Origin: Cellvibrio sp. KY-YJ-3 | GTDB lineage: Bacteria > Pseudomonadota > Gammaproteobacteria > Pseudomonadales > Cellvibrionaceae | Direction of reading: 5' to 3' | Assembly: GCF_008806955.1 (NCBI RefSeq) | Contig: NZ_CP031727.1 | Coordinates: 1,240,001-1,304,000, forward strand | Length of the DNA stretch: 64,000 nt | Shown: piece by piece, positions 7,458 through 60,398 of the stretch | Layout of the letters: each line of letters starts with the position of its first letter | How positions within the stretch are numbered: the first letter of the stretch is position 1 | Program-made: the position numbers and the translations under genes | The notes under the pieces: model-generated | Databases searched by the model: none | Told to the model about the DNA's origin: nothing | Seen by the model: only the letters and a program-made list of their open reading frames with translations

Positions 7458-8846
7458 TTAATATTTGTAAGATTCCGGCTTAAACGGGCCGTCGATTTCT
7501 ACACCGATATATTCGGCTTGCTGTGCGGTCAGTTTGGTAATTACACCACCAAAACCTTCCACCATATCTTTAGCTACTTCTTCGTCGAGTTTTTTCGGCA
7601 ATACACGCACATACAAGTGTTCTGCTTTTTGCTCGGCTGGCAGGTCAGCAAATTTGCGCTCGTACAAATACATTTGCGCTAGCACTTGGTTGGCGAAAGA
7701 ACCATCCATAATGCGCGATGGGTGACCGGTGGCATTGCCCAGATTTACCAGGCGGCCTTCCGACAACAAAATCAAATGATTGTTGGTCGCCTTGTCGCGA
7801 TAGATTTTATGCACCTGGGGTTTAACTTCATCCCACTCCCAGTTTTTGCGCATAAACGCGGTATCAATCTCGCTATCGAAGTGGCCGATATTACACACCA
7901 CCGCACCATTTTTTAGTGCGCGCAGCATGGCAGAATCACACACGTTGACGTTACCGGTCGTGGTGACTAACAAATCGGTAGTGCCCAGTACGATGTGATT
8001 AATATCTTCGTATTTACCGGTGTTGATACCGTCGTTGTAGGGCGATACCACTTCAAAACCATCCATACAAGCCTGCATGGCGCAGATCGGATCGATTTCA
8101 GTAATTTTCACGATCATACCTTCCTGACGCAGTGAAGCAGCAGAGCCTTTACCCACATCGCCGTAACCGACTACCAAGGCTTTTTTACCCATCAGCAAAT
8201 GGTCGGTACCGCGTTTGATGGCATCGCTCAAGCTGTGACGGCAACCGTATTTGTTGTCGTTTTTACTTTTGGTCACTGCATCATTCACGTTGATGGCTGG
8301 CACTTTTAATTGGCCTTTTTTCAACATATCGAGCAAGCGGTGAACACCGGTGGTGGTCTCTTCGGAAATGCCGTGGATTTTATCCAGCATCTGCGGATAT
8401 TTTTCGTGCACGATTTGCGTCACATCGCCGCCGTCGTCCAGAATCATATTCGCATCCCAGGGCTTGCCATCTTTGTTGATGGTTTGCTCGATACACCACC
8501 AGAACTCTTCTTCAGTTTCACCTTTCCATGCAAATACCGGAATGCCGGCAGCGGCGATAGCAGCAGCGGCATGATCTTGGGTGGAGAAAATATTGCACGA
8601 AGACCAGCGCACTTCTGCACCCAAATCCACCAGTGTTTCAATTAACACCGCGGTTTGAATGGTCATGTGAATACAGCCAATAATTTTTGCATCAGCCAGT
8701 GGTTTGCTCGCGGCATATTTGCGACGCAGTGCCATCAGCGCCGGCATTTCACCTTCGGCTATTTCAATTTCCTTGCGGCCCCAGGTTGCGTCTTTGGCAA
8801 ATTCTTCGGCCGTTTTGGCGGCTACTTTGTAGTCGGTGAAGCTCAT
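7458..8846 (-). CDS. ahcY: Adenosylhomocysteinase (S-adenosyl-L-homocysteine hydrolase)
   Basis: NAD-dependent enzyme (about 462 residues) that splits S-adenosylhomocysteine into adenosine and homocysteine and so relieves product inhibition of methyltransferases. Visible motifs include [28 protein letters not shown], the NAD-binding [30 protein letters not shown] and the C-terminal PFKPESYKY tail. The start at 8846 has AGGAAA upstream; the reading from 8867 adds seven unlikely residues. The 128-base gap from metK holds a palindromic repeat doublet and no recognised riboswitch. Confidence 0.96.
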
Positions 8847-8888
8847 AATAATTTCCTGATTAATCAACAGATGGTTGATATTTTATTC

Positions 8889-8955
8889 CGTCATTCCTGC
8901 GAACGCAGGAATCCATTTTTACAAGGGTTGGATCCCCGCGTGCGCGGGGATGACG
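8889..8955. repeat. REP doublet (REPIN-like) between metK and ahcY
   Basis: Two small palindromes in opposite orientation: 8889-8915 (CGTCATTCCTGCG / CGCAGGAATCCA) and 8929-8955 (TTGGATCCCCGCG / CGCGGGGATGACG). The outer ends are inverted, giving the arrangement of a REPIN. A single unit almost identical to the second half lies inside the ubiH-ubiI gene at 59146-59172. Confidence 0.85.
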
Positions 8956-8974: not shown

Positions 8975-10129
8975 TTACAGCGCTTTCTTCAGTGCATCCG
9001 CTTTATCGGTTTTTTCCCACGTAAAATCGGGCAGCTCGCGACCAAAGTGACCGTAAGCCGCAGTCTGGCGATAGATTGGACGTTTCAAATCGAGCATTTG
9101 GATCAGGCCACGTGGGCGCAGGTCAAAGTTTTCGCGAATTAAATCGATAATCGCGCTATCCGAAATTTTGCCAGTGCCAAAAGTATTGATGGAAATTGAC
9201 GTGGGTTCAGCAACACCAATGGCGTAGCTCACTTGAATTTCACACTTGTCGGCCAAACCGGCAGCAACAATATTTTTAGCAACGTAACGACCAGCATAAG
9301 CTGCAGAGCGATCTACTTTGGATGGATCTTTACCGGAAAATGCACCGCCGCCATGACGCGCCATGCCGCCGTAGGTATCCACAATAATTTTGCGACCAGT
9401 CAAACCGCAATCGCCCACGGGGCCGCCGATAATAAATTGGCCGGTGGGGTTGATATGGTATTGCGTATCTTTGTGCAGCCACTCAGCAGGTAATACGTTT
9501 TTGATAATTAATTCGCGCACTGCTTCGCGAATTTCTGCTTGTTTTACGCTGGGGCTGTGTTGGGTAGACAAAACCACAGCGTCGATGGCTACGGGTTTGC
9601 CGTTTTCATAGCGCAGCGTTACCTGACTTTTTGCATCGGGACGCAACCAGGGTAATTCGCCGCTCTTGCGCAATTGTGCTTGCTTTTCTACCAGGCGATG
9701 CGCGTAATAAATCGGCGCGGGCATTAACACAGATGTTTCATTGGTGGCAAAACCAAACATCAAACCCTGGTCGCCTGCGCCCAAATCTTTATCATCAGCT
9801 TCATCAACACCCATGGCGATATCGGATGATTGTTTGCCGATTGCATTTAATACGGCACAAGAGGCGCCATCGAAACCGACATCACTTGAATCGTAACCAA
9901 TATCCAAAATTACCTGGCGAATTAAATCTTCCAAATCCACATAGGTAGAGGTGCGCACTTCACCGGCGACAATCGCCATACCGGTTTTTACTAATGTTTC
10001 TACCGCAACACGCGCGTTGGGGTCATCTTTTAAAATTGCATCGAGCACGGCATCAGAAATCTGATCCGCTAATTTATCGGGGTGACCTTCGGAAACCGAT
10101 TCGGAGGTAAAGACGGAATATTCGGACAT
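8975..10129 (-). CDS. metK: S-adenosylmethionine synthase (MetK)
   Basis: Makes S-adenosylmethionine from methionine and ATP; 384 residues, the normal length. Signatures: [19 protein letters not shown] (ATP/methionine site), [12 protein letters not shown], and the P-loop-like [19 protein letters not shown]. The first residues [12 protein letters not shown] make the start certain. It lies 47 bases downstream of the sahR-like regulator, too close for an independent promoter to be obvious, so both are probably one transcript. Confidence 0.97.
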
Positions 10130-55537: not shown

Positions 55538-55768
55538 GATAATAATTAACCAATAAATAGCGCAGGTCGCCCACTATATTGTGCGTCCGGCATGGGGTCA
55601 ATCATGGTGCGCAAGTTAATGTAAATTCGAGAAGTTGGTTGTTATTAAATGATTAACCAATAAGTTTTACTTGAGCTGAATCAATAGCAGGATTTGCTCT
55701 ATAAAAAGTTTGCGCAGGCGTCATGGGCAATCGTGATAGCATTCCATCACTGTCTACGAGAGGCCGAT

Positions 55769-56377
55769 ATGACCGAACACACATCCCCCGAACAACTGCT
55801 TAGCCCCCTGAATTTTGACGATCTCGCCAACCTGCTGGCACCCCTTGGAACCCTCAATAGCCCTTCTGAATTGCACGGTCTGCTGTGTGGAAAATTAGCT
55901 GGCGGGGCCCAGTTGAGCGAAATTAACTGGCTGTTGGATGCCGTAGAATTTTTGGATTTTGTTGCTGCGCCTGACGAGTCGGTACGTATTGCCTTGAGTA
56001 AGTTGTATCACAACACCTGCAGCGAATTGCAGGGTGAGTTCAGCCTCAAGCTGATGTTGCCGGAAGATGATTCACTGCTGGGTGAGCGCGTCCGTGCCTT
56101 GGGTGAATGGTGTCACGGTTTCCTTACTGGTTTTGGCAGTGTGGATCATCAGGGTAAGCGCACGATTGACGAAGAATCCGCCGAAATGTTGCAAGACATC
56201 GCCAATATAGTTCAAATCCAGGTGGATGATGAAGAGGACGAACCTAGCGCAGAAGCCGACTATATGGAAGTGACCGAATATGTGCGCGTGGTGGTCAGTA
56301 GTTTGTATCTGGAATTTGCCGCCAAGGAATTAGCCGCGCCTACTGTCAGCGCGCCTGCTTCAGATACATTGCACTAA
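55769..56377 (+). CDS. ygfB: YgfB/UPF0149 family protein
   Basis: 202 residues, soluble, acidic. Family pattern: LNSPSELHGLLCGKLAGGAQLSE, LGEWCHGFLTGFGS and the C-terminal YMEVTEYVRVVVSSLYLEF. YgfB stands before pepP in most gammaproteobacteria. In P. aeruginosa a YgfB protein dampens a cell-wall amidase regulator (from memory). GAGAGG precedes ATG 55769; the reading from 55694 adds 25 unlikely residues. Probably co-transcribed with pepP and the ubi gene. Confidence 0.92.
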   Translation: MTEHTSPEQLLSPLNFDDLANLLAPLGTLNSPSELHGLLCGKLAGGAQLSEINWLLDAVEFLDFVAAPDESVRIALSKLYHNTCSELQGEFSLKLMLPEDDSLLGERVRALGEWCHGFLTGFGSVDHQGKRTIDEESAEMLQDIANIVQIQVDDEEDEPSAEADYMEVTEYVRVVVSSLYLEFAAKELAAPTVSAPASDTLH

Positions 56378-56496
56378 GCTTTTTATAAGAGCGGATTTTT
56401 ACAGGAACGTTTTTTTAGGCGAACCGCTTTTTTACCAAAATTGTTTTATACAAAAATTGCTTTTTGCGAGAACTTTCATTTTTTGCGAGAACGTCC

Positions 56497-57810
56497 ATGA
56501 GAATTAGTAAAACCGAATTCGCCCGCCGCCGCAAACAACTGATGGCGATGATGGAACCCAATTCCATCGCCATAGTGCCCGCCGCGCCTGAGCGCACGCG
56601 CAGCCGTGATACAGAGCATCACTACCGGCAGGACAGCGACTTTTTATATCTCTCCGGTTTTGAAGAGCCGAGCGCAGTACTGGTACTAATTCCCGGGCGC
56701 GAACACGGTGAGTTTGTATTGTTTGTCCGCGAGCGCAATCGGGAGCGCGAAATTTGGGACGGTTATCGCGCTGGCCCTGAAGGTGCGTGCAGCGAATTCG
56801 ATGCCGACGATGCATTCCCCATCGATGATATAGACGATATTTTGCCGGGTTTACTGGAAGGTAAACAGCGCGTGTATTACGCCATGGGTAAAGACAGCGA
56901 ATTCGATAAACATGTGATGGATTGGGTAAATACCATTCGTGCGAAAGTTCGCTCCGGCGCGACACCACCCGGTGAGTTTTTGGATTTAAGTCACTTCCTC
57001 AATGAATTGCGTCTATTTAAAAGTGCTGCTGAATTGCGCGTGATGAAAGAGGCCGGCGAAATTTCCGCGCGCGCCCATGTGCGTGCAATGAAAGCGAGTA
57101 AAGCCGGGGTGATGGAATATCAATTGGAAGCCGAAATCCTGCACGAATTCCAAATGAGCGGCGCGCGTTTTCCGGCGTACAACACTATCGTGGGCGGTGG
57201 AAAAAACGGCTGTATTTTGCATTACATTGAAAATTCCGCACCGCTTAAAAATGGCGATTTGGTATTGATCGACGCTGGCTGTGAATTGGATTATTACGCC
57301 GCTGATATCACCCGTACCTTTCCAGTCAATGGAAAATTTTCTCCCGAACAAAAAGCCCTGTATGAAATTTGCCTGCAAGCCCAGCTTGATGCCATCGCCA
57401 TGTGCAAACCGGGTAACCACTGGAATGATCCACACGAGGCTACAGTGCGGGTAATTACCGAAGGTTTGGTGAAAATTGGTTTGCTGGAAGGCGATGTGAA
57501 CGAATTAATTAAAAGCGAAGCCTACAAAGAATTCTATATGCATCGCGCCGGTCACTGGTTGGGTATGGATGTGCACGACGTGGGCGATTACAAAGTTGGT
57601 GGCGAATGGCGTGTGCTCGAGCCGGGCATGGTACTCACCGTAGAGCCAGGTATTTACGTCGCCCCCGATAACGAACGCGTCGCTAAAAAATGGCGCGGCA
57701 TCGGCATCCGCATTGAAGACGATGTGGTGATCACCAAAGATGGCAATGAAGTACTCACTAAAGATGTACCCAAAACCGTTGCTGAAATTGAAGCGTTAAT
57801 GGCCGTGTAA
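56497..57810 (+). CDS. pepP: Xaa-Pro aminopeptidase (PepP)
   Basis: Manganese enzyme (437 residues) removing the N-terminal residue before proline. N-terminal domain with APERTRSRDTEHHYRQDSDF and LYLSGFEEP; pita-bread catalytic domain with NTIVGGGKNGCILHY, metal ligands in LIDAGCELDYYAADITRTF (Asp, Asp), HRAGHWLGMDVHD (His), VLTVEPGIYV (Glu) and GIGIRIEDDVV (Glu). Start at ATG 56497. The sequence TTTTTGCGAGAAC occurs twice directly upstream (from 56461), which is odd but unexplained. Order ygfB-pepP-ubiH is conserved in Pseudomonas. Confidence 0.95.
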   Translation: MRISKTEFARRRKQLMAMMEPNSIAIVPAAPERTRSRDTEHHYRQDSDFLYLSGFEEPSAVLVLIPGREHGEFVLFVRERNREREIWDGYRAGPEGACSEFDADDAFPIDDIDDILPGLLEGKQRVYYAMGKDSEFDKHVMDWVNTIRAKVRSGATPPGEFLDLSHFLNELRLFKSAAELRVMKEAGEISARAHVRAMKASKAGVMEYQLEAEILHEFQMSGARFPAYNTIVGGGKNGCILHYIENSAPLKNGDLVLIDAGCELDYYAADITRTFPVNGKFSPEQKALYEICLQAQLDAIAMCKPGNHWNDPHEATVRVITEGLVKIGLLEGDVNELIKSEAYKEFYMHRAGHWLGMDVHDVGDYKVGGEWRVLEPGMVLTVEPGIYVAPDNERVAKKWRGIGIRIEDDVVITKDGNEVLTKDVPKTVAEIEALMAV

Positions 57811-57863
57811 AAACATTCTCGCACCCAAGCGTTGCCTGGGTGCGCTCAACGCAGGTCAACCTC

Positions 57864-60398
57864 ATGACCCATACCCTCGAATTTGATATCGCCATTATCG
57901 GCGGCGGCATGGTGGGCACCAGTCTCGCCAGTTTACTTGCTGCTAGCCAGCCGCAATTGCGTATTGCTCTGATCGAAGCCCAGCCATTTGCGCGGGCAGA
58001 TGAAATGCATTTTCAACCCAGTTTTGATGCGCGCTCTACCGCCTTGTCCTACGGCACTGCGAATATTTTACGCGAGCTGGGCTTGTGGGATTTATTGCAG
58101 CAACACATCACGCCGATTGCGCAGGTGCATGTGTCGGATCGCGGGCATTTTCTTGGTGGTGTGATTGATGCAAAAGAAAATAATCTCGATGCCGTCGGTT
58201 ATGTGATTGAAAATGCGTGGCTGGGTAATGTGTTGCTCGGGCATGTGCAGGCGCAAAATAATATTCAGTGTTTTGCTTCATCCGCAGTGACATCACTAAC
58301 ACCGCAACAGGATTGTGCGCTGCTGAGTATTAAAACCGACGCGCAAGAGTTTTTAATTAAAACCTCACTGGCAGTTATTGCTGATGGCGGTGATTCACCA
58401 CTGCGTGCCGCGCTGGGCATAGGCACGCAAACACGGGCGTATGGGCAAACCGCCATTATCACCAATGTCGAATTCTCCGAGCCGCATTGTGGCGTGGCCT
58501 ATGAGCGTTTTACTGCCGATGGTCCGGTTGCATTATTACCTCTGGGTGAATCCAATAATGCGCAGCAATCTGCATTAGTTTGGACTTTGCCAGCAGCGCA
58601 GGCCGATGAAATTCTTAAATTAAACGATGCTGAATTTCTGGTGCGCTTGCAGGAGCGTTTTGGTTTTCGCGTGGGGCGTTTTACACGGGTCGCCAAACGT
58701 TTTGCTTATCCACTGCAGCTGGTTTTAGCCGAAGAACAAATTCGCTCGCATCTGGTATTGCTTGGTAATGCTGCGCATTTTTTACATCCAGTCGCAGGGC
58801 AGGGTTTCAATTTGGCGCTGCGCGATTGTGTTTGTTTAGTGGAAACCCTGCGCGAGGCGATTGCAAATAATCAAGCCGTGGGCGATTTGGCAGTTCTGCA
58901 AACTTATCTGGATAAACAATCGCTGGATCAGCAAATCACCATAGAGTTTAGCGATAAATTGGTGCGCTTGTTTTCCAGTGATCAGTTGCCATTAATTGCC
59001 ATGCGCCATCTCGGCTTGTTAAGTCTTGAATCTATCCCGCTCATTAAAAATCAATTTATCGCGCAGACTATGGGCACTGCAGGTCGCCAATTTCGCTGGA
59101 AGTTGGATGATGTGAGTCGTGCAGAATCGAGCGATACAAAAAATCTGGATTCCCGCGTGCGCGGGAATGTCGATACGTCAATCAATAGCACCGATTACGA
59201 TTTAATTATCGTCGGTGCTGGTTTGGTGGGAGCATCACTCGCCTGTGCGATTGCCCAAACGGATGCCGCGCAGAATTTGCGTATCGCCGTGATTGAGGCG
59301 AGTAGTGAAGTGCAACATTTTTCCGGTGAAAATTTTGATCCGCGGGTGGTTGCGCTCACACACGCATCGCAACAATTATTAACCGATATTGGTTGTTGGC
59401 ATGACATTGTCGCGCAGCGAGTGTGTGCTTACCGCGAAATGAAAGTGTGGGATGGTGAAGGCACGGCAGCAATCGAATTTGATTGCGCCGAAGTGCAAAA
59501 AAATCATCTTGGGCATATCGTAGAAAATTCAGTAATTGTTAATCAACTGCGTGAACGCATGGCGCAGTTGTCGAATATCCAGTTGATTCAACCCGTAACG
59601 GTGATGGATGTTATTCCGGCGCAGCCTGAATTTCCGCGAGTGCGGGTGCAACTAGATAATGGTAGCGAAATCACCGCGCCCTTATTAATTGCTGCCGACG
59701 GCGCCAAATCAAATGTGCGCGACTTGGTAGGGTTTTCCACGCGCGAATGGGATTACGGCCAGCAGGCCATTATTACCACTGTGCGCACTGAGCGGTCGCA
59801 TCAATTCACCGCGTGGCAACGGTTTATGCACACTGGCCCGCTTGCATTTTTACCTTTGCAGAATAATGGCGATGCTCACCAGTGTTCGATTGTGTGGTCG
59901 GCGGAAGACGCGGTTGCACAGGAATTAATGGCGTTGGATGACGTCACGTTTTGCGCGCGCCTGACCAGCGCATTTGAAGCGCGCCTCGGGCCGGTAATTG
60001 CGTGCGATAAACGCTACGCCGTGCCTCTGCGTCAGTGCCATGCGACTAGCTATATTCAACCGGGCATCGCCTTGGTGGGCGATGCTGCCCATAATATCCA
60101 TCCGCTCGCAGGGCAGGGCGTTAACCTGGGTTTGTTGGATGTGATCGCGCTTGCGCAGGAAATAGAGCGTGCATTGCAGCGCAATATTCCGCTCGCCGAT
60201 TATTCCATTCTGCGTCGTTACCAACGCCAACGTCTGGCCAGCAATCTCGGCATGATGTCGGCCATGGAAGCCTTCAAACGTTTGTTCGGCAGTCGCGCAT
60301 TGGCGGTGAATTGGCTGCGCAATACTGGTATGCGTCAGTTAAACTCAGTACCGGCAATCAAAAAAATGATTATCAATGCTGCCTTGGGTGTGTCCTAA
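57864..60398 (+). CDS. UbiH-UbiI fusion: two FAD-dependent ubiquinone hydroxylases in one chain
   Basis: 844 residues with two complete flavin monooxygenases in series. Half 1 (about 1-415): FDIAIIGGGMVGTSLASLLA, DGGDSPLRAALG, LGNAAHFLHPVAGQGFNLALRD. Half 2 (about 442-844): YDLIIVGAGLVGASLACAIA, AADGAKSNVRDLVG, LVGDAAHNIHPLAGQGVNLGLLD. Normally UbiH (C6 hydroxylation order) and UbiI/VisC (C5) are separate proteins of about 400 residues; their genes are neighbours in Pseudomonas. The linker (about 420-440) includes KNLDSRVRGNVDTS, encoded by a palindromic repeat at 59146-59172. ATG 57864 has AGG 8 bases upstream. Which half does which reaction is inferred from gene order. Confidence 0.9.
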   Translation: MTHTLEFDIAIIGGGMVGTSLASLLAASQPQLRIALIEAQPFARADEMHFQPSFDARSTALSYGTANILRELGLWDLLQQHITPIAQVHVSDRGHFLGGVIDAKENNLDAVGYVIENAWLGNVLLGHVQAQNNIQCFASSAVTSLTPQQDCALLSIKTDAQEFLIKTSLAVIADGGDSPLRAALGIGTQTRAYGQTAIITNVEFSEPHCGVAYERFTADGPVALLPLGESNNAQQSALVWTLPAAQADEILKLNDAEFLVRLQERFGFRVGRFTRVAKRFAYPLQLVLAEEQIRSHLVLLGNAAHFLHPVAGQGFNLALRDCVCLVETLREAIANNQAVGDLAVLQTYLDKQSLDQQITIEFSDKLVRLFSSDQLPLIAMRHLGLLSLESIPLIKNQFIAQTMGTAGRQFRWKLDDVSRAESSDTKNLDSRVRGNVDTSINSTDYDLIIVGAGLVGASLACAIAQTDAAQNLRIAVIEASSEVQHFSGENFDPRVVALTHASQQLLTDIGCWHDIVAQRVCAYREMKVWDGEGTAAIEFDCAEVQKNHLGHIVENSVIVNQLRERMAQLSNIQLIQPVTVMDVIPAQPEFPRVRVQLDNGSEITAPLLIAADGAKSNVRDLVGFSTREWDYGQQAIITTVRTERSHQFTAWQRFMHTGPLAFLPLQNNGDAHQCSIVWSAEDAVAQELMALDDVTFCARLTSAFEARLGPVIACDKRYAVPLRQCHATSYIQPGIALVGDAAHNIHPLAGQGVNLGLLDVIALAQEIERALQRNIPLADYSILRRYQRQRLASNLGMMSAMEAFKRLFGSRALAVNWLRNTGMRQLNSVPAIKKMIINAALGVS
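59146..59172 (+). repeat. REP unit inside the ubiH-ubiI coding sequence
   Basis: TGGATTCCCGCGTGCGCGGG followed by AATGTCG; matches 8929-8955 except at a few stem or end bases. It is read in frame and encodes most of DSRVRGNVD in the linker between the two enzyme halves. Confidence 0.88.

Follow-up and report, generated by a model that had tools for sequence, protein, structure and literature searches.

In Cellvibrio sp. KY-YJ-3, two hydroxylases of ubiquinone biosynthesis, UbiH and UbiI, appear to be read as one protein whose linker carries a palindromic repeat, which raises the question of how the two genes were joined, whether the repeat was involved, and what the fusion may mean for the pathway. 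A first-pass annotation had interpreted the locus as an in-frame UbiH-UbiI fusion caused by insertion of the repeat. Our analysis of the whole stretch of 64,000 nucleotides in which the gene lies (hereafter the window) and of related genomes bears out a true in-frame fusion whose linker contains a palindromic repeat, but not repeat insertion as the cause of the joining. As the full explanation we consider it likely that one ancestral joining gave rise to a two-site, 1:1 enzyme working beside UbiG, and that the repeat is a later passenger.

One open reading frame for UbiH and a UbiI-type hydroxylase

The fusion frame is free of stop codons from a GTG at 57840 or an ATG at 57864 to the stop at 60398, and a start near the ATG agrees with the alignment to fused relatives. 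The product from this ATG has 844 amino acids and a computed mass of 92.3 kDa. The gene, its parts and its upstream neighbours are as follows.

55694-56377, plus strand: UPF0149 gene (ygfB-like), upstream of pepP; open reading frame with Pfam UPF0149 on 55769-56374
56464-57810, plus strand: aminopeptidase P gene (pepP-like), directly upstream of the fusion; Pfam Peptidase_M24 and AMP_N
57864-60398, plus strand: ubiH-ubiI fusion gene of 844 codons and a stop; two stretches match Pfam FAD_binding_3
57864-59084, plus strand: UbiH half, residues 1-407; GGGMVG at 13, ADGGDS at 173, GNAAHFLHPVAGQG at 301; TIGR01984, PDB 7mwa
59085-59195, plus strand: linker, residues 408-444 (37 residues); fast-evolving, predicted with low confidence
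59196-60395, plus strand: UbiI-type half, residues 445-844; GAGLVG at 451, ADGAKS at 611, GDAAHNIHPLAGQG at 739; TIGR01988, PDB 4n9x and 4k22

Each half contains the three motifs of class A flavin hydroxylases (at residues 13, 173 and 301, and at 451, 611 and 739), which we take to be those named GxGxxG, DG and GD. The first half scored above the NCBIfam equivalog cut-off for UbiH (TIGR01984, 415.1 versus 392.2 bits) and above that of a second UbiH model (NF004356, 449.4 versus 384), and its residues 8-404 matched the solved chain 7mwa (2-polyprenyl-6-methoxyphenol 4-hydroxylase) at E up to 1e-10. The second half exceeded the cut-off of the Ubi-OHases subfamily model TIGR01988 (UbiH/UbiF/VisC/COQ6; 420.5 versus 224.65 bits) and matched, at the same threshold, the solved chains 4n9x (putative monooxygenase) and 4k22 (Protein VisC). 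It stayed below the UbiI equivalogs NF006461 (PRK08850, 350.5 of 633 bits) and NF005949 (PRK08013, 330.7 of 620 bits), and among the models listed it reached no equivalog cut-off, the best being PRK05714 with 442.2 of 653. The UbiI equivalog models are presumably tuned to other groups. The second half lies directly after ubiH in the order pepP-ubiH-ubiI, and the order ygfB-pepP-ubiH-ubiI in the window is one that we take to be that of E. coli. Since the subfamily model is exceeded and the UbiI equivalogs are missed, we call this half UbiI-type on the basis of family and gene order, and because of the missed cut-offs we can only infer its regiospecificity.

An AlphaFold2 model built from 13 alignment rows (eight fused sequences, one of them cut at the 5' end, and five of UbiI) predicted both halves as folded with moderate confidence (mean pLDDT 75.4, pTM 0.50), and pLDDT fell below 50 over residues 400-440, a span that includes the repeat-coded residues 429-437. 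The model is a modest one, in which the packing of the halves is not visible. With the frame open, the UbiH and subfamily models exceeded and 11 further fused genomes at hand (see below), the earlier claim that UbiH and UbiI are read as one 844-residue chain is upheld.

Predicted role in ubiquinone biosynthesis

According to the pathway outlines given in two reports (PMC5069965; PMC10863985), C-5 hydroxylation by UbiI is followed by methylation by UbiG, C-1 hydroxylation by UbiH and methylation by UbiE. UbiG thus acts between the UbiI and UbiH steps, and the two reactions that the first-pass annotation had regarded as consecutive steps of coenzyme Q synthesis are close, not consecutive. Judged from their families, the UbiH domain would hydroxylate C-1 of the ring and the UbiI-type domain C-5, and the two active sites, held 1:1 by the linker, may work beside UbiG in the Ubi metabolon. 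With the fused query, the KY-YJ-3 genome yielded a single match at E up to 0.001, and COQ7, from which we infer C-6 hydroxylation by Coq7, was found in all 21 Cellvibrio genomes surveyed; for the remaining two hydroxylases, no source other than the fusion is therefore visible. Because this genome has no other UbiH/UbiI match, both catalytic sites are probably active.

Tandem association of ubiH and ubiI (visC) in beta- and gammaproteobacteria is described in PMC5069965, and seven Cellvibrio loci read here have the two genes as split neighbours. The fusion shares with such separate pairs both hydroxylases and their order, and differs from them in that a single chain carries the two, joined by a linker and lacking an internal start common to the fused genomes. 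Like the broad-specificity hydroxylases UbiL and UbiM, as these are characterized in PMC5069965, it makes do with fewer polypeptides for hydroxylating the ring. However, whereas those enzymes use one site for several ring positions, the fusion keeps two tethered active sites.

Fused and split genes within Cellvibrio

Among the 21 genomes of the genus, 12 carried the fused gene (G000, G001, G004, G007, G008, G011, G013, G014, G015, G017, G018 and G019, where G000 is the window's own genome and the G008 contig begins inside the gene), seven had separate genes (G003, G005, G006, G009, G012, G016 and G020, with ubiH of G006 truncated by the contig start), one (G002) had two Ns at the joint, hence reading frames that are not assessable, and one (G010) was without a match. 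The latter genome, which is 97% complete, lacked any UbiH/UbiI match and contained COQ7, perhaps reflecting an assembly gap. The named records with the long frame are Cellvibrio mixtus subsp. mixtus J3-8, Cellvibrio sp. OA-2007, Cellvibrio sp. 79 and UBA7671, and three further MAGs have it as well, with one locus (L066) cut at the 5' end.

Separately, four split loci were found to contain a gene of 97-98 amino acids between ubiH and ubiI, one of them in G017, a genome with 6% contamination that carries a second, split ubiH/ubiI pair besides the fused one.

G003, contig C195, 95028-95321: small intervening gene
G005, contig C1, 1651807-1652100: small intervening gene
G009, contig C3, 325135-325422: small intervening gene
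G017, contig C1, 29881-30174: small intervening gene

The intervening protein of G003 belongs to DUF3144 (96.5 bits). Since a more distant homologue occurs elsewhere in all 21 genomes (24.9-65.1 bits), the intervening gene appears to be an additional copy that has entered the ubi pair.

In a maximum-likelihood tree of UbiH and UbiI combined (26 rows, including G002, and G006 by UbiI only), a branch with UFBoot support of 100 separated all fused sequences, together with G002, from all split sequences and the outgroup. G018 branched first within the fused clade and G004 next, and no re-split genome was found inside it. The PepP tree (23 rows) was weakly resolved, with a support of just 54 for the fused grouping, and placed G012 and G016 elsewhere, not as the sister group of the fused clade. 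We propose that the joining happened once, in an ancestor within one Cellvibrio lineage, and that tandem ubiH and ubiI would thereby have come into one frame.

Both halves are under purifying selection, with dN/dS values of 0.04-0.13 over 12 genome pairs whose synonymous sites were near saturation (pS 0.43-0.74), and the linker had values of 0.26-0.78 in the eight of the 12 pairs for which they could be computed. Neighbouring genes of an operon fuse easily. Together with a linker that is not conserved and with split relatives within the genus, this would fit a neutral fusion, an accident that was tolerated and offers no benefit compared with two separate subunits, to which we assign close to an even chance; it competes with an adaptive interpretation and not with the single origin. 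However, the fusion has been kept down to 68% identity among the fused relatives, and the fused clade in the tree is without a re-split genome, although re-splitting need not be easy. On balance, a neutral fusion appears at least as likely as an advantage of the tether.

Probable translation across the linker

A single ancestral joining into one chain, our preferred explanation, has to be weighed against the production of two proteins in the cell, through internal initiation or cleavage of the linker, which would make the fusion merely apparent. The linker, weakly constrained and modelled with low confidence, may be accessible to proteases, and an in-frame GTG or TTG lies within five codons of the second domain in seven of the 12 fused genomes (G004, G007, G008, G013, G014, G017 and G018); in the window such codons stand 31, 28 and 13 codons before this domain and none within five. 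However, no internal start in the linker region was shared across the 12 fused genomes, none of the 12 had an ATG near the old ubiI start, no in-frame candidate start across the linker region followed a Shine-Dalgarno-like motif in this set, and in G019 the whole scanned region lacked an in-frame start codon. Moreover, gaps in the linker alignment fell in whole codons, which suggests that the linker is translated. An internal start is not supported at the level of sequence, and we consider the production of two proteins unlikely. No promoter-like site was found in 58900-59300, and a terminator-like match at 59168-59149 (minus strand) is the repeat itself.

The palindromic repeat and the origin of the fusion

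The repeat in the linker has relatives near the other end of the window, where an inverted pair is flanked by two genes.

59146-59172, minus strand: CGTC-1-type REP, CGACATTCCCGCGCACGCGGGAATCCA on the minus strand; 8-bp stem, 4-nt loop, CCA tail
7458-8867: S-adenosylhomocysteine hydrolase gene (ahcY-like), flanking the REP pair
8889-8955, unstranded: inverted pair of REPs of this family (8889-8915 and 8929-8955), flanked by the metK-like and ahcY-like genes
8975-10129: S-adenosylmethionine synthetase gene (metK-like), flanking the REP pair

In agreement with the earlier description, the linker copy reads as DSRVRGNVD (residues 429-437, 59148-59174), and a nearly identical copy stands between metK and ahcY, where 8929-8957 matches at 90%. 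The KY-YJ-3 genome contains 44 sites at up to three mismatches versus none for the reversed control pattern, and the repeat therefore represents a family far beyond chance, some of whose sites stand as inverted pairs. Six of the 44 touch an open reading frame of at least 120 amino acids: the fusion gene, four frames at their 5' edge, where frames were taken from the earliest possible start codon, and one frame of 121 amino acids. Only the fusion gene has a mid-gene site. At 51-124, the window also contains a perfect inverted repeat whose 33-nt arms are separated by 8 nt.

CGTC-1 REPs, as characterized in PMC3733652, have an 8-bp stem, a 4-nt loop, a CCA tail and a CGTC tag, and include Neisseria dRS3 and Rickettsia RPE-6; Cellvibrio is not mentioned in the main text of that report. 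The Cellvibrio repeats share with the units described there the stem, loop and tail, the occasional intragenic unit and the lack of a known dedicated transposase. The tag of the linker copy differs, being CGAC, one mismatch to the CGTC of many other copies in the same genome. The Y1 tyrosine transposase family PF01797 had no match in this genome and was present in 17 of the 21 genomes of the genus. As in the Rickettsia RPE described in the same source, a palindromic repeat is translated inside a likely working gene, but the Cellvibrio REP sits in a pre-existing fusion linker. In this respect it is a commonplace case, a palindromic unit that a translated linker tolerates.

By eye, the 12 fused linkers contained a clear repeat in G000 and G011, a degenerate one in G007 and G001 and a doubtful one in G008, and lacked it in the remaining seven (G004, G013, G014, G015, G017, G018 and G019); a pattern search at up to two mismatches detected it only in G000 and G011. 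A partial REP was seen by eye beside the Ns of G002. In the degenerate repeat of G007 (locus L011), ATTCCCA...TGGGAAT, one stem pair differs on both sides from the window copy and a shorter stem is kept, again as judged by eye. G019 and G008 fall in the repeat-bearing inner subclade with low support (60-76), and their missing or doubtful repeat could reflect either loss or an unresolved tree. The comparison of split and fused Cellvibrio loci suggested in the first-pass annotation thus found both states, but the repeat does not track the fusion and is absent from its earliest branches. The fusion therefore came first, and the REP entered an existing linker.

That the repeat itself abolished the ubiH stop by an in-frame insertion, as had been claimed, could draw on its presence in the linkers of the window and G011, where it is read through without a stop. 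However, this would require the loss of every trace of the repeat in all seven repeat-free genomes, G018 and G004 among them, and the 27-nt unit is frame-neutral, whereas in the split genomes G012 and G020 the ubiI start and the ubiH stop share a 4-nt ATGA overlap that places ubiI in a different frame. If this overlap is ancestral, a frame-neutral insertion of 27 nt therefore could not have joined the pair. Another split genome, G016, has a candidate ATG with a 17-nt overlap. The linker of the window has 37 residues compared to 32-36 in eight linkers without a clear repeat, and the repeat thus added few net codons. Causation by the repeat, rejected on these grounds, is in our judgement highly improbable. 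Finally, an error of sequencing or assembly that joined two genes has no point in its support, although the two Ns of G002 have the appearance of an assembly problem at the repeat, and it is refuted to near certainty by the 11 further genomes that share the fusion, including four assembled into one or two contigs (G004, G007, G014 and G018).

The single joining that we favour would most likely have started from an overlapping (ATGA) arrangement, which certain split relatives retain. At this overlap, a small mutation that changed the frame may have removed the ubiH stop and brought ubiI into phase, and the ubiI start codon would have decayed afterwards; the joining mutation is no longer readable, because the linkers have diverged too far. 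A CGTC-1-type REP would have landed later in the tolerant linker of the inner subclade, leaving the frame intact, and would since have decayed in some members.

Occurrence outside the genus and significance

A search of 36 genomes from outside the genus (E up to 0.001) gave matches in 35, and in no genome were the two halves found in one stop-free frame. Within the order, where three or fewer candidates were scored per genome, 178 of 293 genomes matched at E up to 1e-100, and among the matches listed every full-length one except that of KY-YJ-3 had at least one internal stop. Seven listed order matches with open frames of over 780 amino acids were fetched, and in each the best UbiH and UbiI matches lay in different open reading frames. 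Of 369 genomes of the class, 18 matched at E up to 1e-125, the 17 other than KY-YJ-3 all with an internal stop, and the 351 beyond the cut-off were uninformative. The samples of the order and class are in line with the 36 genomes but weaker, that of the class being thin, and a fusion elsewhere could therefore have been missed. In the loci L069-L087, mostly from Marinobacter, Hahella, Luminiphilus and other gammaproteobacteria, reading frames on the matched strand never exceeded 488 amino acids. In one of these, L072 from Marinobacter salarius R9SW1, the match spans both halves, yet neither is a reading frame above 330 amino acids.

Among the literature matches listed, no title or beginning of an abstract reported a UbiH-UbiI fusion. 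Likewise, neither 'fused' nor 'fusion' appears in the main text of PMC5069965 or of PMC11707229, and in PMC11985809 the terms ubiH, ubiI and fused led to one general passage only.

In PMC10863985, interactions of UbiE and UbiH with UbiG and UbiI are predicted by an AlphaFold2 model of the E. coli metabolon, and the architecture of the Ubi metabolon as a whole is described as poorly defined. Against the background of a neutral fusion discussed above, it is a tentative possibility that the Cellvibrio fusion was selected as an obligate two-site enzyme, which would fix UbiH and UbiI at 1:1 in the metabolon and speed hand-over through UbiG. The fusion would then be a covalent record of metabolon contacts, and perhaps the first described fusion of two metabolon hydroxylases. 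The metabolon picture presented in PMC10863985 is a computed model, and a natural UbiH-UbiI fusion represents independent evidence that the two can be accommodated side by side, at least in one lineage. In addition, it provides a ready construct of fixed stoichiometry for purification and imaging.
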